From positions 1 to 31,035 of IMG/VR virus record IMGVR_UViG_3300022750_000029: DNA of 31,035 nucleotides; one strand, written 5' to 3'. Under the pieces are notes generated by a model that did no database searches, had not been told where the DNA came from, and worked only from the letters and a program-made list of their open reading frames with translations. A program made the position numbers and the translations under genes. Origin of the DNA: a virus. This document shows, in pieces, positions 2,955 through 14,636 of the stretch. Position 1 is the first letter of the stretch; every line of letters begins with the position of its first letter.

Positions 2955-3090
2955 CAGGCTATGCCTCGGGAGGCACCCTGCTGCGTTGGGGAACACCCTT
3001 CTCTTTCTTCTCTCAGATTTTCGCCAGTAAAGGCCAAGCAAGCAGCAATGCGGGTATCGGTGCATCCGATATAGGCCTGTGGAGAAAGTC

Positions 3091-3684
3091 ATGTCCGCAT
3101 CAGTCGACTGCGTCAAAAACTTCAAGTACCTCGTCCGTCGCTCACCCGATCAGGGAATGGGCTATTCCGAACGCCTGCATTTTCATGGCAAGGAAATCGG
3201 GTTCAACAACTTTGATCACTTTCTGCTTTCGCTGGCCAAGCTAAGCGATGACCGCATTGGGAAGATCAATACTAAACTGATGCGGTTGGCCTGCGCTCGA
3301 ACGATGCCAAAACCGAGTCAAGAGTATTTCGAGTTCATCGCCCACAAAGACCGTCGTATGCGCTTCTACAGCCACTGGATCGGTTGGGATAAGCGTGGCC
3401 AAGAAGTTCGCGTGCCCAGCCTGATGAATGCCTCCTACCGCGTTCCGAACCTACGCGAACGACTCGACGCGCCGGTCTATGTCATTGAGACTCGGCCACA
3501 GCTGCTGGCCTGGCGCCACAAATGGCAAGGGATGGCCTACGTGGTCCAAGAGCTAGCAGAGCGCGAATTGCGCCCAGCGTTCGACCGAGAACCGGATGTA
3601 GTACCCGGCATCCGCGAAGAAGTCATCGATCTGGAAGAGGATTACACCCACAACTACGCCACCTGGTATCCCTCAGGTAAGTGA
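3091..3684 (+). CDS. Hypothetical protein, 197 aa, partner of the SF1 helicase
   Basis: I chose the ATG at 3091 because GGAG ends 6 bases before it; an in-frame GTG at 3079 would add four residues (201 aa). The protein starts MSASVDCVKNFKYLVRRSPD, has no signal peptide or membrane segment, and I do not recognise a domain. Aromatic and charged residues are concentrated in the centre (RRMRFYSHWIGWDKRG) and the C-terminus is acidic (REEVIDLEEDYTHNYATWYP). It lies 113 bases upstream of the helicase gene on the same strand with no terminator carrying a T-run between, so the two are probably co-transcribed. An accessory or specificity subunit for the helicase is an inference from that pairing only. 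Confidence 0.75.
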   Translation: MSASVDCVKNFKYLVRRSPDQGMGYSERLHFHGKEIGFNNFDHFLLSLAKLSDDRIGKINTKLMRLACARTMPKPSQEYFEFIAHKDRRMRFYSHWIGWDKRGQEVRVPSLMNASYRVPNLRERLDAPVYVIETRPQLLAWRHKWQGMAYVVQELAERELRPAFDREPDVVPGIREEVIDLEEDYTHNYATWYPSGK

Positions 3685-3699
3685 CTCGGCCCACGATCA

Positions 3700-3763
3700 G
3701 CATCGCTTCCGCGCCCCGGCGCCAGGAAGCGATGCAACATGCCTGATATCCTTCCCTATCAGG
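3700..3763 (+). other. Two consecutive hairpins between the 201-aa gene and the helicase gene
   Basis: GCATCGCTTCC (3700-3710) pairs perfectly with GGAAGCGATGC (3725-3735), with GCGC/GGCGC pairing possible inside the loop. CCTGATA (3742-3748) then pairs with TATCAGG (3757-3763). Neither is followed by a T-run, so they are not typical terminators. They may stabilise or process the mRNA, or tune translation of the helicase. Confidence 0.55.
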
Positions 3764-3801
3764 AATACAAGCCCCAGCGCTTTCAAGGACGTAGTAAATG
3801 A
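3739..3801 (+). CDS. Possible 20-aa leader ORF overlapping the helicase start
   Basis: ATG at 3739 opens MPDILPYQEYKPQRFQGRSK and stops at TGA 3799-3801, overlapping the helicase ATG (3798) as ATGA. That geometry suits translational coupling. There is no strong ribosome site upstream (GGAAGCGATG at about 3725-3734), and the hairpin at 3742-3763 lies inside it. It may be chance. Confidence 0.25.
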   Translation: MPDILPYQEYKPQRFQGRSK

Positions 3802-6800
3802 ATTCGCAAAATATCGTGCGTTACTGGCACGCCGTCGAACTGCTGCAACCTCAGGCAGCCCCAAAGCTGAAAAAGCGCGACAGCGACTACCAGCCGTTTT
3901 TCCAAGACATCCCCACCTCGTCCCAAATCCTGCCGTGGATGCCAGCCAACCCTCTGAGCCGGCAGCGCCTGCCGAACAGACGCGTATGGAGCCACACGCT
4001 CTACGCACACCTCTACAACAACCTGAATGTTTCTCGCCAGCTAGAGACTCTCTACGGCGCCGACCAAGGCTACAAGGAGCCACAACAAAGGCTCGCCGCC
4101 TTGTACGCGCTCAAGTTCAACGATCAAGGCATGATGCTGGTCGATAGCTTGGTGCTATCCAGCGAGGCATGGTTCGTCGGCTGCGCCATCAACAAGAAAG
4201 ATTGGACACGCGGCTTCGAGGAGACCCAGGACTCCCTCCGCGAACAGGCTAACAGCCTGCTCAGTGGCGTGGTCCACGCCGCAGACCTGTCACGCCTAAC
4301 AAACTATATTCGTCAGACCTTGGGACTCGACGAGTTTTTCGCAGACGAGCCGCGCGAACATCGCTTCCGCTCAGCACCGATCAACCCGAACAAGCCCGAA
4401 CAAGAAGACGATCCGCTCAACAGCTTCCTGCTAAGCGATTTGGCCGACATGGCCGATGCCCTAGCCCGTGGCGAAACCAGCGAGCCGTTGGCCCGCTACC
4501 TGAGTCATCACGACACCACCCTGCGTCTGCACCTCGACAAGCCCGAAGCAGATCTGGCTCTGATTGATCGCCTCGCCCCCTCGCGCTATGCGACCGGCTG
4601 CTGGCCTGCCGAAAGGCATTTGGGGTTGGTGCACTCCCAACAACTGGCAGTCAACAGCCTGCTCCAAAACCTCAGCAACAACACCGGCATAATGGGCGTC
4701 AACGGTCCGCCAGGTACCGGGAAGACCACCCTACTCCGCGACCTGATCGCGGCAGTGGTGACACAACGAGCCGACGTACTGGCCTCGTTGAGTAGGGCCT
4801 CGGACGCCTTCATCCAGGATGGTCGCGAATCCGCCAACGATGGTGGACGCGAACGCTTTGCCTATCAACTCAAGCCCAGCCTGTTCGGCTTCGAGATGGT
4901 GGTAGCATCCTCCAACAATGGTGCCGTGGAGAACGTAACTCTCGAGTTGCCCCAGCACGATAAGGTTGACCCATCCTGGCTGCCCGATGCCGAATACTTC
5001 AGCGAACTGGGCGAGCTCACCAGCGGCAAACCAGCTTGGGCAATGATCTCTGCGGCATTGGGCAGCAAAGCCAAACGTACCCAGTTCGTCGATCGCTTCT
5101 TCTATGGCAAGCGTCCACCCAAAACGACGGAGACCAAAGACGAATCCACATTCTCCCAACCAGAGGCCCTCGACAACGGCACCTTGGACGAAGATCTCCA
5201 CGACGGCGATCCAACGCCCGACGCGTCCGTAGCGAACAACATGGGAGACAAGCCAGCCCCCAAGGGCATGCGCGAATGGTTGTCCGAGCAAGTCCCACAA
5301 ATGAAGTTGCTCTCGTCCGCCGAAAAAACCAATTTCTGGCGCGCCGCCGTAAAGCAATACCAGGACGCCAAGAACGCCGAACAAGCGATACGCGCTCAAG
5401 TTAGCGACATTCTGGAACGGATTCAGGCAGTGATCAGCGCCAAAGCCCGAGTACATCAGAAGGAAAAGGAGCGCCAAGTCCGTCTGACCCAACGCAGCAG
5501 TCTCGATGACGAACAAGCTACGCTGGAAACACTGCAGCTCACGCCCGCTCGCGAGCAACTGCAACGCGAACTTCAGGCTCTTGAAGCACACCTTGCAAAA
5601 AAGCCGGGTTTTCTCGCCAACCTATTCAGCCTCTGGGGTGCTCATCGCACGTGGGCAACTCGGCAACGACTGCTCGATAGCTCTCGCACCTTGGCCAAGG
5701 ACGCCTTCGACAGCGCCCAACGCCAAGCGCAGCGACTAGTCGGCCGGCTCACCGAACTCAATCAACAATTGGCTAAGGACGAGCAGGAGATCAATGAAGC
5801 AGTGCTCCACGCCGCCCTGCAGATTGACAAGGCTCGCAGCATTGCCCAGGCTGGCAAGGCCAAGCACCTGCAGGTCTGGCTCGAACAAGGTCAGATCGGT
5901 AGAGGCAGCGAGATCGAGCTGCTCGAACCCTGGATAGTCGAAGGCTGGCGTCAGGCTCGGGCGAAGGTATTCATCGAAGCGCTCAAGCTACACCGCGTCT
6001 TCTTCCAGATCGAAGCCTCGCGTTTACGCGCTAACTTGGACTTCATCACCAGCACGCTCACCGGCAGTCATTATCGGGGGGTATCCAAGGCCGTGGTACG
6101 TTCGGCATGGGCCTCGCTTTTCATGGTAGTGCCGGTGCTCAGCAGTACCTTCGCCTCGTTCGCCCGCTCCTTCGGCAGCCTTGGCTGCGGAGAGATTGGC
6201 TGGCTGTTGGTGGACGAAGCCGGTCAGGCTACACCGCAGGCTGCAGTGGGTGCCCTATGGCGTGCACGCCGGGCTGTGCTAGTCGGTGATCCGCTGCAAT
6301 TGGAGCCGATTGTCACCGTATCTGATGCCGTGCTCGAACACATGCGTACCCGATATCAAGTCGACGCAAGCTGGCTACCCAATCGCCAGTCCGCCCAAAC
6401 CTTAGCCGACCAGGCCACTCCTTGGGGTCGCATGGCTGGTCCCAAGGACAAGAAACACTGGGTCGGCCTGCCGCTGGTAGTGCATCGTCGCTGTGACAAA
6501 CCGATGTTCGACCTGGCTAATCGCATCGCCTACGACGGAGCCATGGTCTATGGCACCATCGCGCCCTCATCCGCCAAAGAAACTCCTGCCCGCCTACCCA
6601 CCGGCTGGGTGCACGCGAGTGGCCGCTCCTCTGGCAATTGGGTCGACAATGAAGGCAAGGCGCTCGAGCGTCTGTTGGCCTTGCTTGATGGCTACGGTGT
6701 GCCGCTGTATAGCATCGCAGTTATCACGCCCTTTCAGGACGTGCGCAACCAGCTCAAGGATCGATTAGATACCAAGATCGTGCGCGGTACGATTCACACC

Positions 6801-7037
6801 ATGCAAGGTAAGGAGGCCGCAGTGATCATCCTTGTCCTGGGTGGGAGCAGTGAAAACGGCGGCGCTCGTGAATGGGCAGTTTCCAAGCCTAACCTGCTCA
6901 ACGTCGCTGCCACCCGGGCCAAACGCCGCTTGTATGTGATTGGCGATCGCAATGACTGGAAGCAGCGGAAACTCTTCTGTGACGTTATTGAGCTGCTACC
7001 AGCTCATTCCCAGATAACCGCCGACAGCCATGCATGA
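3798..7037 (+). CDS. SF1 (Upf1/Dna2-like) helicase, 1079 aa
   Basis: ATP-dependent nucleic-acid helicase/translocase of superfamily 1. A roughly 290-residue N-terminal region of no known fold to me begins MNSQNIVRYWHAVELLQP. Walker A follows at about 300-312 (GVNGPPGTGKTTL). A long insert at roughly 440-790 includes Lys/Glu/Gln-rich stretches of coiled-coil type (about 530-710). Walker B is at about 802-810 (WLLVDEAGQAT) and motif III at about 828-836 (VGDPLQLEP). Motif IV (ITPFQDVRNQL), motif V (GTIHTMQGKE) and motif VI at about 1032 (LLNVAATRAKRRL) complete the core, so all motifs are present and the enzyme should be active. RNA or DNA cannot be told from sequence. The ATG at 3798 has AAGGA 8 bases upstream. 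Large SF1 helicases with one small partner are frequent in anti-phage islands, so a defence role is plausible but inferred. No nuclease motif is evident. Confidence 0.9.
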   Translation: MNSQNIVRYWHAVELLQPQAAPKLKKRDSDYQPFFQDIPTSSQILPWMPANPLSRQRLPNRRVWSHTLYAHLYNNLNVSRQLETLYGADQGYKEPQQRLAALYALKFNDQGMMLVDSLVLSSEAWFVGCAINKKDWTRGFEETQDSLREQANSLLSGVVHAADLSRLTNYIRQTLGLDEFFADEPREHRFRSAPINPNKPEQEDDPLNSFLLSDLADMADALARGETSEPLARYLSHHDTTLRLHLDKPEADLALIDRLAPSRYATGCWPAERHLGLVHSQQLAVNSLLQNLSNNTGIMGVNGPPGTGKTTLLRDLIAAVVTQRADVLASLSRASDAFIQDGRESANDGGRERFAYQLKPSLFGFEMVVASSNNGAVENVTLELPQHDKVDPSWLPDAEYFSELGELTSGKPAWAMISAALGSKAKRTQFVDRFFYGKRPPKTTETKDESTFSQPEALDNGTLDEDLHDGDPTPDASVANNMGDKPAPKGMREWLSEQVPQMKLLSSAEKTNFWRAAVKQYQDAKNAEQAIRAQVSDILERIQAVISAKARVHQKEKERQVRLTQRSSLDDEQATLETLQLTPAREQLQRELQALEAHLAKKPGFLANLFSLWGAHRTWATRQRLLDSSRTLAKDAFDSAQRQAQRLVGRLTELNQQLAKDEQEINEAVLHAALQIDKARSIAQAGKAKHLQVWLEQGQIGRGSEIELLEPWIVEGWRQARAKVFIEALKLHRVFFQIEASRLRANLDFITSTLTGSHYRGVSKAVVRSAWASLFMVVPVLSSTFASFARSFGSLGCGEIGWLLVDEAGQATPQAAVGALWRARRAVLVGDPLQLEPIVTVSDAVLEHMRTRYQVDASWLPNRQSAQTLADQATPWGRMAGPKDKKHWVGLPLVVHRRCDKPMFDLANRIAYDGAMVYGTIAPSSAKETPARLPTGWVHASGRSSGNWVDNEGKALERLLALLDGYGVPLYSIAVITPFQDVRNQLKDRLDTKIVRGTIHTMQGKEAAVIILVLGGSSENGGAREWAVSKPNLLNVAATRAKRRLYVIGDRNDWKQRKLFCDVIELLPAHSQITADSHA

Positions 7038-7311: not shown

Positions 7312-7319
7312 GAATTATA

Positions 7320-7380
7320 TGGTCGGGACGGAGTGATTCGAACACTCGACCCCTAGCACCCCATGCTTGCAGGGGCGCTA
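7320..7380 (-). tRNA. 3' fragment of tRNA-Pro(GGG), likely attachment-site remnant
   Basis: Read on the minus strand it runs from a D-stem-like TAGCGC through an anticodon arm with loop ATGGGGT (anticodon GGG), variable loop AGGGGTC-like, T arm GAGTG-TTCGAAT-CACTC, the acceptor 3' strand CGTCCCG and an encoded ACCA end at 7320. The 5' third is wrong: nothing before TAGCGC can pair with CGTCCCG, and one anticodon-stem pair is mismatched. A piece carrying the anticodon loop to CCA is what integrating elements leave behind or bring as an att site. It is very unlikely to make a working tRNA. Confidence 0.8.
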
Positions 7381-7574: not shown

Positions 7575-7784
7575 ATGCCCAACTCTGACCTTCTCCCTTC
7601 CCTGCTGTTTAAGCTCAACGAAAACCAACTTGCCCTTGAGGCTGCCATCATGGAGCTGACTTTATGGGTCGAGCAGCGTGGCTCAGCAGAAGTGGCCGGA
7701 AATGTCCGCGGCGCCCTGCAGACGATCGACAGGAATGAAGAGTTCATCAAGATGACACTGGCCGTCCTAATGACGCCGGAGTGA
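7575..7784 (+). CDS. 69-aa repeated small protein, copy 2 (intact)
   Basis: Starts MPNSDLLPSLLFKLNENQLA and contains EAAIMELTLWVEQRG; it is predicted helical and acidic, with no signal or membrane segment. CGGAGG lies 7 bases before the ATG at 7575; an in-frame ATG at 7437 is rejected because it has no such site and the upstream part is not conserved. The same protein is encoded at 13323 (three or so substitutions) and as a broken copy at 1421. All three share about 40 bases of leader (CTGCTAC, CCTCTT and GAGGA blocks), so gene and control region move together. The function is unknown to me. Its repeated occurrence beside prophage or mobile genes suggests a phage-derived accessory protein. 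Confidence 0.75.
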   Translation: MPNSDLLPSLLFKLNENQLALEAAIMELTLWVEQRGSAEVAGNVRGALQTIDRNEEFIKMTLAVLMTPE

Positions 7785-7982
7785 CCTAACCTATTGATTT
7801 AAAACCGCTATGGCTCGTTTCTAGGGTGGCAAAACATCCGCTTTTTTGTGCTTATCCAAACGGTAACTCATGGCCTGCAGCGGAGGTTTTGCGCAAGCTT
7901 ACCTGCAGCTGACGGGAATTTTGTCGACGTCCGCACCTCCAATTTGTAGGGCGCATCGCCCTGCATACAGAGGCCATGAACA

Positions 7983-8105
7983 ATGCCGCAGTCGAAGCCA
8001 AAACCAGCTAAAGCAGAACAGCCGAAAGTTGAAAACCTGCCCAGCAAAAAAACCGGCAAGGTGTCTGGAAAGAAAAGGGGAAATGCAGATCCCAAACAGA
8101 AATGA
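7983..8105 (+). CDS. Small basic Lys/Pro-rich protein, 40 aa
   Basis: ATG at 7983 with AGAGG about 10 bases upstream opens MPQSKPKPAKAEQPKVENLP, then SKKTGKVSGKKRGNADPKQK and TGA. Lysine makes up about a third of it and there are six prolines, so it is very basic and probably disordered. Such peptides are seen as hypothetical proteins in Pseudomonas genomes. The strongly biased composition in one frame argues that it is real rather than random. No function can be assigned; nucleic-acid binding is possible. Confidence 0.5.
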   Translation: MPQSKPKPAKAEQPKVENLPSKKTGKVSGKKRGNADPKQK

Positions 8106-8198
8106 TCCAGGGTCGACCGCGCCCAAACCATGTATGAAAGCCGATGGCTTGGGTGCGGCAACACTTGATAGGACACCAACATGTCAAGGTGACCCCTA

Positions 8199-8435
8199 GG
8201 CCGATATAAGCTATTGATAGCCGATTCGCTCGGCCTACCAGTCCTCAGTGAAAACGCTAGATATTCAATTTTTGAAATCACACCACTCAAGCCTACCGAT
8301 GTTTTTGTTAGTAAGGTCGCGCTGACGGTAGAGTTTGGAGGTAACATCACAAGAACTGGGGAAGCGGCGCAGTATTTAGTACCTAACAGAAATGAGTGGT
8401 CGTCTGCTAAACTCATCGGTGAAATCGATAATTAG
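8199..8435 (+). pseudogene. C-terminal fragment of a toxin-like protein (copy 2)
   Basis: The frame is open from 8193 (after TGA 8190-8192) to TAG at 8435. It reads GRYKLLIADSLGLPVLSENA, then RYSIFEITPLKPTDVFVSKV, and ends EAAQYLVPNRNEWSSAKLIG EIDN. No ATG or ribosome site precedes it (only TTG at 8214), so it is a headless fragment rather than a gene. It sits 8 bases before the 104-aa gene, the standard order of toxin tip then immunity. The ending resembles the '...QY.xP....L...G.I' close of some NAD-dependent toxin domains (TNT/ART type), but this likeness is weak and only a suggestion. Confidence 0.5.
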
Positions 8436-8895
8436 GACCTAGCATGAACATTATAGTTTTAAAACAGAGCGCTATTGATCTTCGTGAGAAATTGGATTTC
8501 CACAAAGACAAAGAGCCGTCCGTGCTAGCCTTATATCAACAGCTTGAACATTTAATATCAGCAGCTGAACGTGGAATGATCAAAGAAAAAATGCAAGCGA
8601 GAGACATTCCTGGATACCGTACCTTTGTCGAGTCTAATTTAGAGGAACACTCCGACCTTTCGAAAGCCTATAATAATTTCTTTATTGAACTGAATGATGG
8701 CAGAAAGTCTGAGGCCTTCGAGATGTTACAAGAGATGTTAAGGAAAAGCAGGTTATAAGAATGCTTGAATCGTCTGCGTACCTTGCCGCGACTGCTACAG
8801 CACAGGCGCAAGCGAGCAATTTACGTCATGAAGCACTACCGGCAAGAAATTCCAGAGTCTCCCTACCTAGAGCGACCTGATTAGGGATCAGAGCC
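8361..8895. repeat. Direct repeat block A, copy 2 (partner 1584-2117)
   Basis: Toxin tail, 104-aa gene and trailing 3' sequence, matching 1584-2117. Immediately after GGATCAGAGCC (8885-8895) the copies part company. Confidence 0.85.
8444..8758 (+). CDS. Putative immunity protein, 104 aa (copy 2)
   Basis: Same family as the product of 1667-1981 and the same length. Copy 2 has MNIIVLKQSAIDLREKLDFH where copy 1 has D at residue 5 and an altered stretch from residue 18. The region from about residue 30 to the end is almost unchanged, including RDIPGYRTFVESNL and the C-terminal EMLQEMLRKSRL. Both copies are intact while the DNA around copy 1 has decayed, which suggests selection on the protein. 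No membrane segments are seen. It begins 8 bases after the stop of the toxin-like fragment. Role as immunity protein is inferred from gene order. Confidence 0.6.
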   Translation: MNIIVLKQSAIDLREKLDFHKDKEPSVLALYQQLEHLISAAERGMIKEKMQARDIPGYRTFVESNLEEHSDLSKAYNNFFIELNDGRKSEAFEMLQEMLRKSRL

Positions 8896-9432
8896 AATTG
8901 ACCGCGATGTAGTGCTAGGCGCAAGGCAAGCCGCAAATATTCTTGAGTTTGGGGTTTGAGCACCGGTCACCGCCACCAGTGGTGAATACCTGATCGAACC
9001 TGAGTGTTTGGGCATGTTCCGTAACCCATCTCAAAGATCTGCTGAGACGGCTGCCAACGCAACAAGCGAGGGGAATATTCCAACTACTACCGCAATAGAG
9101 CGGTACCTTGTTAGTTTGCGCGGATTTGTTGCATGGACGCTTCGGTGTCGAGCACGGTTAGATGCCCCTATACATCGTCAATAGCATGACATCGGGCGAT
9201 TGCCGAAGGGCCACGCAATAATCAGTCTTCGCGCATGAACTTTACATGCGCATATGCGTGATTAGAGCACCGACCATCATTCTCTTGTCATATTGCCCTA
9301 GTGCTTGTCCACATTTCGCATTCGGCGTAATCGGGCTCGCACGCCCATCATAGGCGTATTTGATCCAAGACTATATAGGCGTTCGGATCACATTCCTGGC
9401 AGCGTTCTAAGGTGGGTTCGTCGCCGTCACGT
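8896..9432. other. 537-bp segment present only in copy 2, no clear gene
   Basis: No ORF with a believable start, and no tRNA-like or CRISPR-like structure. It is bounded by imperfect 11-base direct repeats, GGATCAGAGCC (8885-8895) and GGATAATAGCC (9433-9443). In copy 1 these are fused to a single GGATCATAGCC (2107-2117). A near-palindrome CATGCGCATATGCGTG lies at about 9246-9261. Confidence 0.5.
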
Positions 9433-9901
9433 GGATAATAGCCACCCTCCCAGCGACCTCATTGTAGGCACGAGTCAATCACCTCAATCACCGTCTGAAG
9501 CCTCTCCCTCAGTTGAGGTAGCTCCGACGCAGTAAGCGCATGCGGTCTCCCTGCCATACCCAAAAACGCAGCCAAGGCCAAGTCAGAATGCCTCACCAAC
9601 GCCACTAAATGCTTACCACTCGGCCCGCTGCTCCCGGCCATCCAGTTCTTCACCGTTCTCTCATTCGCATTCGTCCAACGCATCAACGTCTTCGCCGCCT
9701 GGTGCGTCCCTCCTAGTTCCATATGAAGTGCCTTAGCGATGCAGTCTGCGTACTGTTGTTGAGTCAGAAAAGAGTTGCCCGTTTTTGTGAACATTTTTCC
9801 CTCCCCGGTCTTCTACCTTGTTTAGAGCCACTTTCTAAAAAACGAGATGCTGATCGCGGTCTCCGCGTTGTTTCCAGCGGCTGTTGATCAGAATGAGGAC
9901 A
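9433..9901. repeat. Direct repeat block B, copy 2 (partner 2107-2576)
   Basis: The 111-aa gene, the divergent intergenic region and sequence up to the recombinase ribosome site. It matches 2107-2576 except for scattered changes and one missing T. Confidence 0.9.
9459..9794 (-). CDS. Putative DNA-binding protein, 111 aa, divergent from recombinase
   Basis: Starts MFTKTGNSFLTQQQYADCIA with a very strong ribosome site (GGGAGG, 6 bases before ATG). The central NERTVKNWMAGSSGPSGKHL VALVRHSD segment (about residues 44-71) reads like a helix-turn-helix: 'ERTVKNW' is the recognition-helix style of XRE/Cro-like phage regulators, followed by a conserved helix ending in LAAFLGMAGR. It is transcribed away from the recombinase across about 110 bases, the usual layout for a repressor of the divergent operon. 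That regulatory role is inference. Its frameshifted twin is at 2133-2469, still joined to the same divergent leader. Confidence 0.7.
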   Translation of the reverse strand: MFTKTGNSFLTQQQYADCIAKALHMELGGTHQAAKTLMRWTNANERTVKNWMAGSSGPSGKHLVALVRHSDLALAAFLGMAGRPHALTASELPQLRERLQTVIEVIDSCLQ

Positions 9902-9906
9902 TGTCG
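9795..9906. promoter_or_regulatory. Divergent control region, 111-aa gene / recombinase operon
   Basis: Conserved between the two repeat copies (9795-9901 and about 2470-2576). It contains CGCGG-TCT-CCGCG and an outer pair CTGATC (9851) ... GATCAG (9887), which could be operator half-sites. The recombinase ribosome site AATGAGG is at its right end. No clear -35/-10 pair could be fixed. Confidence 0.4.
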
Positions 9907-11472
9907 ATGCAAACTCTCATTGGCGCGTATAACACTAGCAATGCCTCAACCGCAGCCATGGCGGCGGCGTATGTGCGCATGTCCACAGAGCACCAGCAGT
10001 ATTCGACAGAAAATCAGCTCGATACGATCCGCTTATACGCAGCAACACATGCGCTGGAAATCAACAAGGTTTACACCGACGCGGGCAAAAGCGGCTTGCG
10101 CTTGGAAGGTCGTGATGCTCTCAAACAGCTCTTCTTCGACGTAGAGAAAGGGCTAGCCAATTACTCGACAGTCCTGGTTTATGACGTTAGCCGTTGGGGT
10201 CGTTTCCAAGATCCTGACGTCAGCGCCAGTTACGAGGTGCGCTGCCGGCAAGCTGGTGTATCGGTTCAGTATTGCGCAGAGCAGTTCACCAACGACGGCT
10301 CACCGGTCTCCAATATCGTCAAAAGCGTCAAGCGCATGATGGCCGGCGAATACAGCCGAGAACTCTCGGTGAAGGTATTTGCTGGCCAATCGCGCCTGAT
10401 TCAGCTGGGGTATCGCCAGGGCGGCCAAGCGGGATACGGTTTGCGCCGGCAATTGGTCGACGGACATGGCTCGCCGAAAAACGAATTGGATCTTGGAGAA
10501 CATAAAAGCATCCAAACAGACCGTGTAATTTTAGTACCTGGCCCTCCAGCCGAAATTGAGATGGTGCATAACATCTATCGGCTGTTCGTCGAGGAAGGCA
10601 GAAGTGAGCGCGAAATCGCAGACTGGCTGAACTCGCAGCGAGTGCTTAATGACCGCGGCAGAGCATGGTCACGTGGCACGGTGCACCAAGTGCTAATCAA
10701 TGAAAAGTACATCGGCAATAACGTGTGGAATCACACGTCTTTTAAACTGAAGCAAACCCACACGCAAAACCCGCCTGAGGAATGGATACGAGCGAACGAA
10801 GCCTTCTGCCCCATCGTGAGCGTCATCCTCTTCAAGGCTGCTCAGTCGATCATACAAACACGCTCCTACCGCATGCCCGACGAGGAAATGTTGCACGCCT
10901 TGAAGGCAATCTATCAACGCACAGGTTATTTGTCGGGGATCGTCATCGACGAGTCTGAAGGTTGTCCCTCGAGTAGTGCGTACCAGCAGAGATTTGGAAG
11001 CTTGCTTCGATCTTACTCCCTGATCGGATACTCCCCTGCACGCGACTACCGGTACATCGAAGCCAACAAACGCCTACGTCAGATGCACCCGCTTCTCCTA
11101 CAACAAACGACTCAGAAGATTGCGGATGTTGGTGGGAAGGTCACTGTAGATCCATGCACCGACCTCATGGTGGTCAACCAGGAGATTTCGATTTCTTTGG
11201 TGCTGAGCCGTTGCCATGTGTCACCTACCGGCAGCAAGAGATGGAACGTCCGATTCGATTATGGATTGAGCCCAGACCTGACAATCGCAGTTCGAATGAA
11301 AGAGCAGGAAGAGGCGGCTCTGGATTACTACATTTTGCCAACGATCGACATCGAAACCCCTAGGCTCCGCCTTGCCGAAAGTAACCAGGCGAACCTCGAA
11401 ATTTACCGGTTCGACACCTTGGAGATCCTGTCTGAACTGGCACGCCGCAGTGAGTTTAGGAGGGTCGCATGA
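9907..11472 (+). CDS. Large serine recombinase, 521 aa
   Basis: Site-specific DNA recombinase of the resolvase/invertase superfamily. The N-terminal catalytic domain begins AAAYVRMSTEHQQYSTENQL, with the nucleophilic serine in VRMSTEHQ (about residue 26) and the conserved YDVSRWGRFQD motif near residue 95. The recombinase DNA-binding domain follows from about residue 160, with GYRQGGQAGYGLRR and REIADWLNSQRVLND...WSRGTVHQVLINEKYIGN. The C-terminal 200 residues lack an obvious four-cysteine zinc ribbon. I place the start at 9907 because GAGG is 8 bases upstream; ATG 9901 and ATG 9847 are alternatives, the latter lying inside the repeated leader. It overlaps the next gene by ATGA and forms an operon with two ParB-like genes. 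Its substrate site is unknown. Confidence 0.9.
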   Translation: MQTLIGAYNTSNASTAAMAAAYVRMSTEHQQYSTENQLDTIRLYAATHALEINKVYTDAGKSGLRLEGRDALKQLFFDVEKGLANYSTVLVYDVSRWGRFQDPDVSASYEVRCRQAGVSVQYCAEQFTNDGSPVSNIVKSVKRMMAGEYSRELSVKVFAGQSRLIQLGYRQGGQAGYGLRRQLVDGHGSPKNELDLGEHKSIQTDRVILVPGPPAEIEMVHNIYRLFVEEGRSEREIADWLNSQRVLNDRGRAWSRGTVHQVLINEKYIGNNVWNHTSFKLKQTHTQNPPEEWIRANEAFCPIVSVILFKAAQSIIQTRSYRMPDEEMLHALKAIYQRTGYLSGIVIDESEGCPSSSAYQQRFGSLLRSYSLIGYSPARDYRYIEANKRLRQMHPLLLQQTTQKIADVGGKVTVDPCTDLMVVNQEISISLVLSRCHVSPTGSKRWNVRFDYGLSPDLTIAVRMKEQEEAALDYYILPTIDIETPRLRLAESNQANLEIYRFDTLEILSELARRSEFRRVA

Positions 11473-12380
11473 CAGCTATCGAGACCCATCGCAGAGCGCT
11501 GATGCACATCGCCGAAGAGACGAACATTCAGCTCATTCCCATTGAAGAAATTCGGGTGCTTAATCCACGGGCACGTAACAAGCAAGTGTTCGCCAGGTTG
11601 GTTGAGAATATATCGGCGTTAGGCCTCAAGCGGCCGATTACGGTCGCCCCTACGATGGGCGGCACCGAACCCTATGAAATCGTCTGTGGCCAAGGTCGCT
11701 TCGAAGCATTGCAGGCACTTGGAGAGAAAAAAATCCCGTGCATCGTGGTGAGCGCTAGCGAAGCGGATCGATATCTGATTGGTTTAGTTGAAAACCTCGC
11801 GCGTCGAAAACATTCCAACCGTGAGCTTTTGGCCTCAATCCAGCTCCTCTCAGATCGTGGTTATACCTGCCCGCAGATTGCCGAAAAAACCTGTTTGGAT
11901 GCAGGTTATGTACAAGGGATTTTGGTGCTGTTGCGTCAGGGCGAAGAGCGACTGATCGCAGCCGTGGAAAAAGGCTGGTTATCCATAAAATTGGCGATGG
12001 AAATTGCCCGTTCGAAGGATGTCGATCTTCAAAAAGCCATGATGGAGGCCTACGAAAGCGGTGTACTCAAAGGCGAACAACTGATGAGGGTTCGCCGCCT
12101 CGTTGATAGGCGCAAAACCTTCGGAAAGCGGTACGGCCAGCAAGCACCTCGCGCAGAGAAACACACGCCCCAAAAGCTTCTAAAGGCTTATCAAATAGAA
12201 GTTCGCCGTCAGAAAGTCATGATCAAAAAGTCAGATATCAATGAGCAGCGGCTACTGATCATAGTAACCGCGATGCGCAAATTGCTCGCCGATGATTATT
12301 TTAAGACGTTGCTTCGTAACGAAGATATTCCGGATATGCCCAAGCCGCTGGCCGACCGGATCTTTGGAGAGACGCCGTAA
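11469..12380 (+). CDS. ParB/RepB-like partition protein 1, 303 aa
   Basis: ParB N-terminal domain from about residue 18: IQLIPIEEIRVLNPRARNKQ, then GQGRFEAL (74-81) and ENLARRKHS (108-116), which are the box I/II-type signatures of the ParB nucleotide-binding fold. A helix-turn-helix of the KorB/ParB kind follows at about 130-152 (SDRGYTCPQIAEKTCLDAGYVQG). The last 100 residues are basic (RRKTFGKRYGQQAPR). It resembles RepB-type plasmid partition proteins, which bind centromere repeats and normally work with a ParA/RepA ATPase, but no ParA is present here. The ATG overlaps the recombinase stop (ATGA) and the stop overlaps the next ATG (TAATG), so the three genes are translationally coupled. 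A role in DNA recognition for recombination or in stabilising an excised circle is inferred. Confidence 0.85.
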   Translation: MTAIETHRRALMHIAEETNIQLIPIEEIRVLNPRARNKQVFARLVENISALGLKRPITVAPTMGGTEPYEIVCGQGRFEALQALGEKKIPCIVVSASEADRYLIGLVENLARRKHSNRELLASIQLLSDRGYTCPQIAEKTCLDAGYVQGILVLLRQGEERLIAAVEKGWLSIKLAMEIARSKDVDLQKAMMEAYESGVLKGEQLMRVRRLVDRRKTFGKRYGQQAPRAEKHTPQKLLKAYQIEVRRQKVMIKKSDINEQRLLIIVTAMRKLLADDYFKTLLRNEDIPDMPKPLADRIFGETP

Positions 12381-13282
12381 TGTCAGAGGTCAAGCAGGCA
12401 TTCGAGAGTCGTGTAATCGCCATCCCCCTAGACCGAATCCTTCCATCGCGAAAGGTCGATCAACTTATAACTGGCAGCAAAAAGTACGCAAGTATTTTGA
12501 GCTCGATTAGAGAGCTGGGCGTCGTTGAACCCTTGGTGGTTCATCCCAAGCCCCTCATCGCAGGTGGAATATCTTCGTTCATGCTTCTGGACGGACATTT
12601 TCGTTTAGAGGCACTCAAGGCATTAGGCGCGACTGAGGCGCTATGTTTGATTTCTACCGACGATGAAGGGTTTACCTACAATCGGCAAATCAACAGGCTG
12701 ACGCCTATCCAAGAACACAAAATGGTCGTTACCGCTCTGAAAAAAGGTATTGAAGCTTCTCGGATTGCATCCGTGCTTGGCATCAATGTGGTTCGAGTTC
12801 ACGAAAGAGAAACCTTGCTGAAGGGCATCGCACCTGAAGTAGCGGAGATGCTGAAGGTTCGCATGGTATCGCAGGACGTGTTTCGCGCTCTTCGACTCAT
12901 GAAGCCTATCCGTCAAATCGAAACAGTTGAAATGATGATTTCAGCCAACTGCTTCACGAGAAATTATGCGCGGATGGTATTAGCTGCATCTCGCCCTGAG
13001 ATGCTGGTCGAAACAAAGAAAAAACCGAGTGACGTAAGTGCCGTCGACATTGCCCGAATGGAGCGAGAAATGGAAAACCTGCAGCATGATTACAAGCAGG
13101 TTGAGGATACTCTGGGCGAGACGATGTTGGTTCTGGTTGTAGCAAAAGGTTATCTCGTGCGCATCCTGCGTAACGAAACAATCGCAGGTTATGTTACTCG
13201 CTACTACGCAGAGCTACTCGAAGAGCTGGTGTCCATCATGGAAGCAGTAACCTCTGACGCGAGGCAGCTTGAACGGGAGTAG
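12380..13282 (+). CDS. ParB/RepB-like partition protein 2, 300 aa
   Basis: Distinct from its neighbour but of the same superfamily. The ParB-like fold runs through VIAIPLDRILPSRK, LGVVEPLVVHP, the DGHFRLEALKALGA box (71-84) and NRLTPIQEHKMV (105-116). Next comes a helix-turn-helix (ASRIASVLGINVVRVHERETLL, about 126-147) and a helical C-terminal half with a coiled-coil-like MEREMENLQHDYKQVEDTL near residue 230, probably for dimerisation. This matches RepB C-terminal-domain proteins annotated as 'plasmid partitioning protein RepB'. The canonical GERR arginines are reduced to GHFR, so CTP handling may differ from classical ParB. It is the last gene of the coupled recombinase operon; the 69-aa gene copy 3 starts 40 bases later. 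Confidence 0.8.
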   Translation: MSEVKQAFESRVIAIPLDRILPSRKVDQLITGSKKYASILSSIRELGVVEPLVVHPKPLIAGGISSFMLLDGHFRLEALKALGATEALCLISTDDEGFTYNRQINRLTPIQEHKMVVTALKKGIEASRIASVLGINVVRVHERETLLKGIAPEVAEMLKVRMVSQDVFRALRLMKPIRQIETVEMMISANCFTRNYARMVLAASRPEMLVETKKKPSDVSAVDIARMEREMENLQHDYKQVEDTLGETMLVLVVAKGYLVRILRNETIAGYVTRYYAELLEELVSIMEAVTSDARQLERE

Positions 13283-13322
13283 CGCTTGCCTGCTACGATC
13301 ACCTCTTCACCGAGGACTCACC

Positions 13323-13576: not shown

Positions 13577-13592
13577 CTGTATATCCAAACAG
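13577..13592 (+). promoter_or_regulatory. LexA (SOS) box
   Basis: CTGTATATCCAAACAG fits the gammaproteobacterial CTG-N10-CAG LexA consensus with the central TATAT. It lies 20 bases upstream of the GTG start of the coiled-coil gene and should repress the two-gene unit until DNA damage. Confidence 0.85.
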
Positions 13593-13940: not shown

Positions 13941-14636
13941 ATGTGCGGACGACTTTCCCAATACCACGGTATCCACGACTTCGTAGCAGCGCTGAACATG
14001 CCTAACGCGCTGATCAACAACGCAGGTGATCAGCCGTTCGAGCGGTACAACGCTGCGCCCACTACTCAACTCGCGATCTTCCACCAGGAAGGCGAGTACC
14101 TGCACGCCGATATGGTTCGTTGGGGATGGCGGCCGCACTGGGCAAAGGACCGCGCCGCGCCGATCAATGCCCGAGTGGAGAAAGTCGCTCACGGTCCCTT
14201 CTTCCGGGCGATCTGGCCGCACCGGGCAATCATCGCGATCGACAACTGGTTCGAGTGGGTTGATGAAGGTGGTCCGAAGAAACAGCCATATCTGATCCGC
14301 CACCGCGATCAGTCGCCGATCCTTTGCGCTGCAATCGGCCAATACCCGAACGCAGAGCATGAACCAGGTGAGCACGACGGATTTGTCATCATCACTGCAG
14401 ACAGTGCGGGCGGCATGGTGGACATCCACGACCGGCGTCCGGTGGCGCTGACACCTGAGCTTGCCCGAGAGTGGCTGGACCCGGCCACGCCAAAGGAACG
14501 CGCCGAACAGATGGTGTTGCTACAAGGCGAATCGACTGAGTCGTTCGAATGGTTCAAGGTCGATCGTGCGATCGGCAACGTGCGCAATCACGGTCCTGAG
14601 CTGATCAAGCCGACTGAGGTCGGCGGTTTGTTCTAG
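13941..14636 (+). CDS. yedK: SRAP/YedK-type abasic-site peptidase, 231 aa
   Basis: SOS-response-associated peptidase. It forms a covalent thiazolidine link through Cys2 to abasic sites in single-stranded DNA, shielding them from cleavage. The sequence starts MCGRLSQYHG, so Cys2 is exposed after Met removal, and this fixes the start at 13941 (AGGAG 6 bases upstream). The other active-site residues are present: Asn76 in PINARVE, Glu105 in NWFEWVD and His163 in DIHDRRPVAL. The length of 231 is normal for the family. It is preceded by a coiled-coil gene under a LexA box, which agrees with DNA-damage control. Genes of this type are often found at prophage borders in Pseudomonas (from memory), so it could be chromosomal or carried by the prophage. 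The symbol is by family, not strict orthology. Confidence 0.92.
   Translation: MCGRLSQYHGIHDFVAALNMPNALINNAGDQPFERYNAAPTTQLAIFHQEGEYLHADMVRWGWRPHWAKDRAAPINARVEKVAHGPFFRAIWPHRAIIAIDNWFEWVDEGGPKKQPYLIRHRDQSPILCAAIGQYPNAEHEPGEHDGFVIITADSAGGMVDIHDRRPVALTPELAREWLDPATPKERAEQMVLLQGESTESFEWFKVDRAIGNVRNHGPELIKPTEVGGLF

Follow-up and report, generated by a model that had tools for sequence, protein, structure and literature searches.

A gene for a large serine recombinase that runs directly into two genes for different ParB-fold proteins raises the question of whether such a trio moves DNA or partitions it. We analyzed this locus in a window of 31,035 nt, which is the whole of the virus contig IMGVR_UViG_3300022750_000029 and encodes tail, endolysin and head-closure genes in its right half. 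A preliminary description had named four genes here, a recombinase gene coupled by stop-start overlaps to two ParB/RepB-like genes and a small divergent HTH gene beside them. All four lie where it placed them, with the overlaps it reported, ATGA between the genes for the recombinase (REC) and the first ParB-like protein (PARB) and TAATG between those for PARB and the second (REPB). The features of the region are as follows.

1667-1981, in the window: second occurrence of the MNII gene, in a truncated copy of the unit
2107-2576, no strand assigned: older copy of the left part of the unit, truncated, with a frameshifted HTH gene and the very start of the REC ORF
3079-7037, in the window: Mokosh-like helicase gene (1079 aa; MkoC match, E 4.5e-68), with a 201-aa neighbor
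7318-7367, minus strand: 3' part of a tRNA-Met gene, which adjoins S87 in relatives
7575-7784, plus strand: left copy of S87, native left-hand context (the tRNA-Met fragment) kept
7785-13322, plus strand: inserted unit between the S87 copies (MNII gene, divergent HTH gene and trio)
8444-8758, plus strand: MNII gene, 104 aa, no family match
9459-9794, minus strand: divergent gene, putative regulator, 111 aa, HTH-like by eye (phrog_23106, E 3e-7)
9847-11472, plus strand: REC, large serine recombinase, 541-aa ORF, likely start at ATG 9958
11469-12380, plus strand: PARB, ParB_N and RepB-type protein by Pfam profiles
12380-13282, plus strand: REPB, second ParB-fold protein, with a DGHFR box, without the E-N box and with long C-terminal helices
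13323-13532, plus strand: right copy of S87, a 69-aa prophage gene (PHROG 12397), native right-hand context kept
13577-13592, in the window: SOS (LexA)-like box, beside S87
13941-14636, in the window: SRAP (SOS response-associated peptidase) gene, beside S87

REC matched PF00239 (E 8e-20) and PF07508 (E 8e-23), both above cut-off, and its Ser46 and the SRWGR arginines R116 and R119 were invariant among 25 diverse homologs. The protein has the makeup of a large serine recombinase, a resolvase catalytic domain with the active Ser and Arg plus a Recombinase domain, and its nearest solved structures are TP901-1, YokA (SPbeta) and TnpX. The best NCBIfam match was CcrB (E 2.6e-14), at 52.8 bits against a cut-off of 900, and no zinc-ribbon domain match was found in REC. 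Because most distant relatives align only from residues 36 to 39, the true start is probably ATG 9958 rather than 9847, and the part of the ORF upstream of this ATG is probably untranslated in most relatives. Among the trio proteins REC is the best conserved (53 to 60% at the greatest distance). In some members of the Verrucomicrobia loci (L040-L042, L050 and L057), a short, truncated resolvase-like frame lies directly before REC.

PARB matched ParB_N (E 1.7e-10) and RepB PF07506 (E 3e-17), and REPB matched PF07506 (E 1e-32), with no ParB_N match for REPB in the domain search. Profile searches found Spo0J/Noc for both proteins (E 4e-17 for PARB and 5e-9 for REPB), and Noc, Spo0J and KorB were among the structures closest to them. 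AlphaFold models were obtained with pLDDT values of 74 for PARB and 77 for REPB. The PARB model matched ParB with a Z of 15.0 over 93 residues at 1.6 Å; the REPB model matched Noc with a Z of 12.3 over 189 residues at 9.2 Å, a deviation indicating that domains match rather than the whole protein. REPB is predicted from this model to have a ParB/Noc-like fold. The canonical CTP boxes of ParB, found in PARB as CGQGRxEA (C73-G-Q-G-R) and ENxARR (E108-N-x-A-R-R), were invariant in 63 of 63 loci, whereas box I of REPB is altered to DGHxR in 58 of 61 and the E-N pair of its box II is absent. Thus, PARB has the GxxRxxA and ENxxR boxes of the ParB CTPase fold and REPB does not, although it is predicted to keep the fold. 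The preliminary description had singled out GHFR, in place of the usual GERR, in the second protein. This observation is correct for REPB, but PARB is also without GERR, having GQGR, and GHFR is not special to this locus, DGHxR being the rule for the second protein. Because both GQGR and GHFR are conserved, they do not reflect decay.

The trio was searched for in other genomes, as the preliminary description had suggested. A scan covering one genome per species yielded 52 loci, of which 48 have a REC at least 53% identical over most of its length, and viral contigs contributed four more related loci. Of 59 loci examined, four run off the contig; 53 of the 55 with enough sequence keep REC-PARB-REPB in order, which places the arrangement far beyond chance. 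The exceptions are L041, without a REPB match, and L055, a distant REC alone (39% identity), and all complete additional loci retrieved also keep the order. A further candidate for a recombinase-only member, G152, looked to be without REPB and was rejected, its contig ending inside PARB. The divergence of the three proteins was correlated (Spearman 0.73 to 0.81, 0 of 500 permutations) over 58 rows, one of which (L058) has a misassigned REPB. At about 50 of the 59 loci, tblastn placed a homolog of the divergent gene, for which no Pfam match was found, in the corresponding divergent position; in some distant lineages it found none. The proposal that these genes make up one coherent unit is therefore borne out by conserved order, overlaps and correlated divergence; as for a recombinase commonly occurring alone, which the description had considered, intact RECs of the family were not found alone in close relatives.

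Hosts range beyond Pseudomonas into the Alpha- and Betaproteobacteria, the Verrucomicrobia and the Myxococcales, and include Stutzerimonas, Magnetospirillum, Sphingomonas, Bosea and Roseomonas relatives as well as Verrucomicrobia and Myxococcales MAGs. Further hosts, known from plasmid records, are Agrobacterium, Sphingobium, Methylibium, Xanthobacter and Paraburkholderia, and the block is found in prophages, on plasmids and in genomic islands. Within the Pseudomonadales, 294 evenly sampled genomes included four with REC, three of which have REPB, the fourth being cut by a contig end.

That the block is mobile is well supported. In an all-against-all DNA comparison, homology ended just outside the four genes, and near-identical blocks of only these genes (3.9 to 4.7 kb) were present in unrelated surroundings. 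Specifically, 3,904 bp are 96.9% identical between Agrobacterium C58 pAt and pAt1D1460, where they lie in two different places, and the left flank of one Agrobacterium block occurs without the unit in other plasmids. L047 and L048 are 98.4% identical over 4.1 kb; L003/L028, L029, L044 and L060 share 4.5 to 4.7 kb at 92 to 97%; and one Bosea genome has two copies of the unit. In the P. putida group, a 4.7-kb unit lies between inverted copies of a dispersed repeat. At a site occupied by the complete unit in P. guariconensis relatives, G206 (L148) has an inverted remnant of its left part, truncated to the HTH gene and residues 1 to 133 of REC. Together with the empty site described below, the moved blocks and this inversion uphold the earlier suggestion of a mobile element.

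The ends of the unit are formed, depending on the lineage, by S87 repeats, T-arm-like direct repeats, an inverted dispersed repeat or a conserved element after REPB. End comparisons found no att core common to all lineages, and a single universal att site was rejected, the end sequences being lineage-specific. The Agrobacterium block has the 19-bp motif CCTTGAnnGGAATCGAACC, which resembles a tRNA T-arm, in direct orientation on both sides. This motif is strongly strand-biased in pAt C58, where 20 of its 21 copies share a strand (control 1), and it is likewise found at the ends of AbiEii, VapBC and Fic cassettes; since its copies bound trio-free cassettes too, another enzyme may move them. The motif is dispersed in NC_003064.2 (L090, L141) and in other rhizobial megaplasmids (L096, L097, L098, L101 and L142-L146), and at the ends of toxin-antitoxin/Fic cassettes it is followed by unrelated sequence in each plasmid. 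The element after the REPB stop is a noncoding stretch of ~110 nt found in L034, L035, L036, L037, L039, L054 and L091, almost unchanged between the Alphaproteobacteria and a single Thermoanaerobaculia MAG (GGGGACCCGGACCC..AGCGCGGGGACC..GGAGACGCC..), for which no Rfam family was found. Copies of the element without an intact REPB occur in G218 and G215.

S87 is present in the window at 1421, 7575 and 13323. The order is S87, 5.5 kb with the MNII gene, the HTH gene and the trio, S87 and then SRAP; the copies bounding the unit differ at 29 positions over 210 nt and are 5,748 bp apart from start to start. The preliminary description had proposed mapping the ends from empty sites, and L218 and L197 provide the unoccupied form of the window site, with the tRNA-Met fragment, one S87 and the SRAP gene contiguous; S87 and SRAP also stand together in L196, L200, L203, L212, L216 and L219. 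These empty sites belong to related species at 71 to 82% identity, one genome per species having been searched. Because relatives join the same flanks around one S87, the unit is an insertion with S87 duplicated. A crossover point inside S87 was considered and rejected, the native copies being without a clear switch. A reading of S87 arrays as integron-like cassettes was dropped because S87 is a common prophage gene. A truncated copy of the unit's left part spans 1583-2576, within which 2107-2576 is 96 to 97% identical to 9433-9901.

We tentatively favor the explanation that the unit may well be a minimal mobile cassette moved by its own REC, with PARB and REPB as site-binding clamps that control synapsis or direction. 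REC would act on short recombination sites at either end of the unit that encodes it, and the 3.9- to 5.7-kb block of regulator, REC, PARB and REPB would leave or enter accessory slots of other mobile elements, namely prophage ends, plasmids and integrative elements. PARB, with intact CTP motifs, and REPB, as its diverged ParB-fold partner, would bind specific DNA near the ends, and these clamps would pair the sites and/or set the direction of recombination, as directionality factors do with other serine integrases. The divergent gene would repress the operon. We infer that movement of the unit is catalyzed by REC, and likewise which bases are exchanged and all roles given here to the products of PARB, REPB and the HTH gene. 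The preliminary description had proposed site recognition, directionality or circle stabilization for the ParB-type proteins, roles that they may have. ParA-independent ParB proteins include VirB (PMC10770331) and KorB (PMC11790492), and a link to mobile elements is frequent among orphan ParBs, which vary in nucleotide use (PMC12704722, a text in which recombinases are not mentioned); directionality factors for serine integrases are a further published precedent (PMC5737554). Counting against this explanation, the 210-nt S87 repeats could stem from homologous rather than site-specific recombination, the ends share no common att core, the slots are of defence type and parS-like sites show no excess. 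Its bolder form is somewhat unlikely: a new class of serine-recombinase cassettes gated by heteromeric ParB-fold clamps that combine a CTP switch with a diverged partner, in which a clamp driven along DNA by nucleotide would control pairing or direction while the cassettes hop between accessory slots and dispersed repeats across phyla.

It is rather unlikely, in our estimate, that the trio is instead the integration/excision core of larger islands, moving itself together with variable cargo in the way that the gin operon, with its three integrases, serves GInts and ccr serves SCC elements. In L006, REPB and S87 are 6.6 kb apart, whereas S87 directly follows REPB in other close relatives; in the window, S87 copies delimit two stretches in tandem, and one of them includes the Mokosh-like helicase gene, which sits between the truncated and full unit copies; L023 has two tandem segments in one hotspot; and the GInts are a four-gene recombination operon with variable cargo (PMC5385486). 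Against such a core, the recently moved blocks hold the four genes only, and a constant partner end beyond the cargo was not found.

The slots that the unit occupies bear on another alternative. An accessory slot of Pseudomonas (L023, L049 and L241-L248), flanked by a MobI-like gene on one side and a 133-aa gene on the other, holds trios in L023, L049 and L060 and 4.8- to 25-kb inserts in six other genomes. The three inserts read contain CBASS-type genes (cyclase, E 7e-143; TRIP13, E 2e-135), a UvrD/Gabija-like gene, and an M78 peptidase with a beta protein, and tblastn found no trio in them. Other trio copies fill slots that hold defence or toxin-antitoxin genes elsewhere, and the neighbors of the Agrobacterium unit are AbiEii, Fic and VapBC; thus, defence genes and the unit use the same accessory slots. 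A 9- to 12-bp core at the mobI hotspot, first taken for an att site, was rejected because both of its "ends" lie inside conserved flanking genes. This sharing of slots, with the discrete and very patchy occurrence of the block, would suit a passenger, perhaps an anti-plasmid, anti-phage or competition system, for whose movement other enzymes or homologous recombination would be responsible. We regard this as improbable: in PADLOC (library dated 2023) no family matched REC or REPB and PARB matched only a weak methyltransferase model, an intact recombinase is an expected mobility gene, and blocks of the same content are present in several copies per genome (L045/L046).

The preliminary description had also reported that ParA is missing, and this holds: a PF13614 search of 18 trio genomes found no ParA gene in the unit, and the RepB domain occurs in these genomes as the adjacent pair. 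ParABS systems encode a ParA ATPase with ParB, and the unit does not. Among the rows listed, the nearest ParA is mostly tens of kilobases off; the chromosomal ParA is 27 to 49 kb from the trio in five Pseudomonas genomes, and a ParA-like gene about 5 kb away in G003 is part of another gene set. In Bosea (G017), three single RepBs lie beside ParA genes (about 1.3 kb), but the paired RepBs do not. Sixteen-bp parS-like palindromes showed no excess in 12 loci, a comparison that diverged sites could escape; neither ParA nor such an excess was found with the unit, the description having named a ParA gene and centromere at the other end as counterevidence. A plasmid or partition origin was rejected, there being no ParA and the Pseudomonas copies being mostly chromosomal. 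A stabilization system, in which multimer resolution by the recombinase, together with marking or pairing of copies by the two ParB-like proteins, would prevent loss of a circular element or plasmid, is very improbable: the ParB/RepB homology, REPB relatives in 97 plasmid records and units on large plasmids in Sphingobium and Agrobacterium speak for it, but these chromosomal copies without ParA, the carrier plasmids' own ParA/ParB (KK22, L-1) and the large serine integrase architecture of REC, which is not that of a small resolvase, speak against it.

Read as a mobile cassette moved by its own REC, the trio can be set beside known systems. The integrases of Bxb1, phiC31, SPbeta and PLE have, like REC, resolvase catalytic and Recombinase domains, and direction in those systems is set by accessory proteins of other origin; in the trio, two ParB-fold proteins are obligate companions in the operon, with no counterpart in the literature searched. 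Noc, KorB and VirB, orphan ParB-type CTP switches, have a ParB fold without ParA as the trio does, and PARB keeps the CTP motifs; unlike them, the trio has a recombinase-linked pair of diverged paralogs with RepB-type (PF07506) C-terminal parts. The PF07506 match of PARB and REPB is common to RepB of repABC, which adjoins RepA (ParA), whereas the trio's pairs do not. The GInts (ginABCD) are likewise a compact multigene recombination operon, in Pseudomonas islands (PMC5385486), but consist of three tyrosine recombinases and a small protein (GinD) rather than one serine recombinase and two ParB-fold proteins. SCC ccrAB shares a large serine recombinase core with variable neighbors; the trio is without the rlmH target, the CcrA partner and a REC zinc-ribbon match, and has the ParB pair instead. 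By their membership criteria, the trio belongs neither to SCC (ccr) nor to the GInts. The open-access literature searched, with subscription papers and preprints outside that search, contained no description of the trio. If this explanation is true, ParB-type DNA clamps would gain a new job in the control of site-specific recombination, and a compact, widespread mobile unit would be added that is now annotated separately as "recombinase" and "plasmid partitioning protein." Chromosomal "RepB partition protein" genes of Pseudomonas would then need renaming, and the unit could be drawn on for new serine recombinases that come with dedicated control proteins.

The block in the window is in the end region of a prophage. 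The tRNA-Met fragment at 7318-7367 is probably a remnant of the prophage attachment site, and the helicase and its 201-aa neighbor are probable defence cargo beside the trio unit. The SOS (LexA)-like box and SRAP gene beside S87 form an arrangement that is kept in several relatives.
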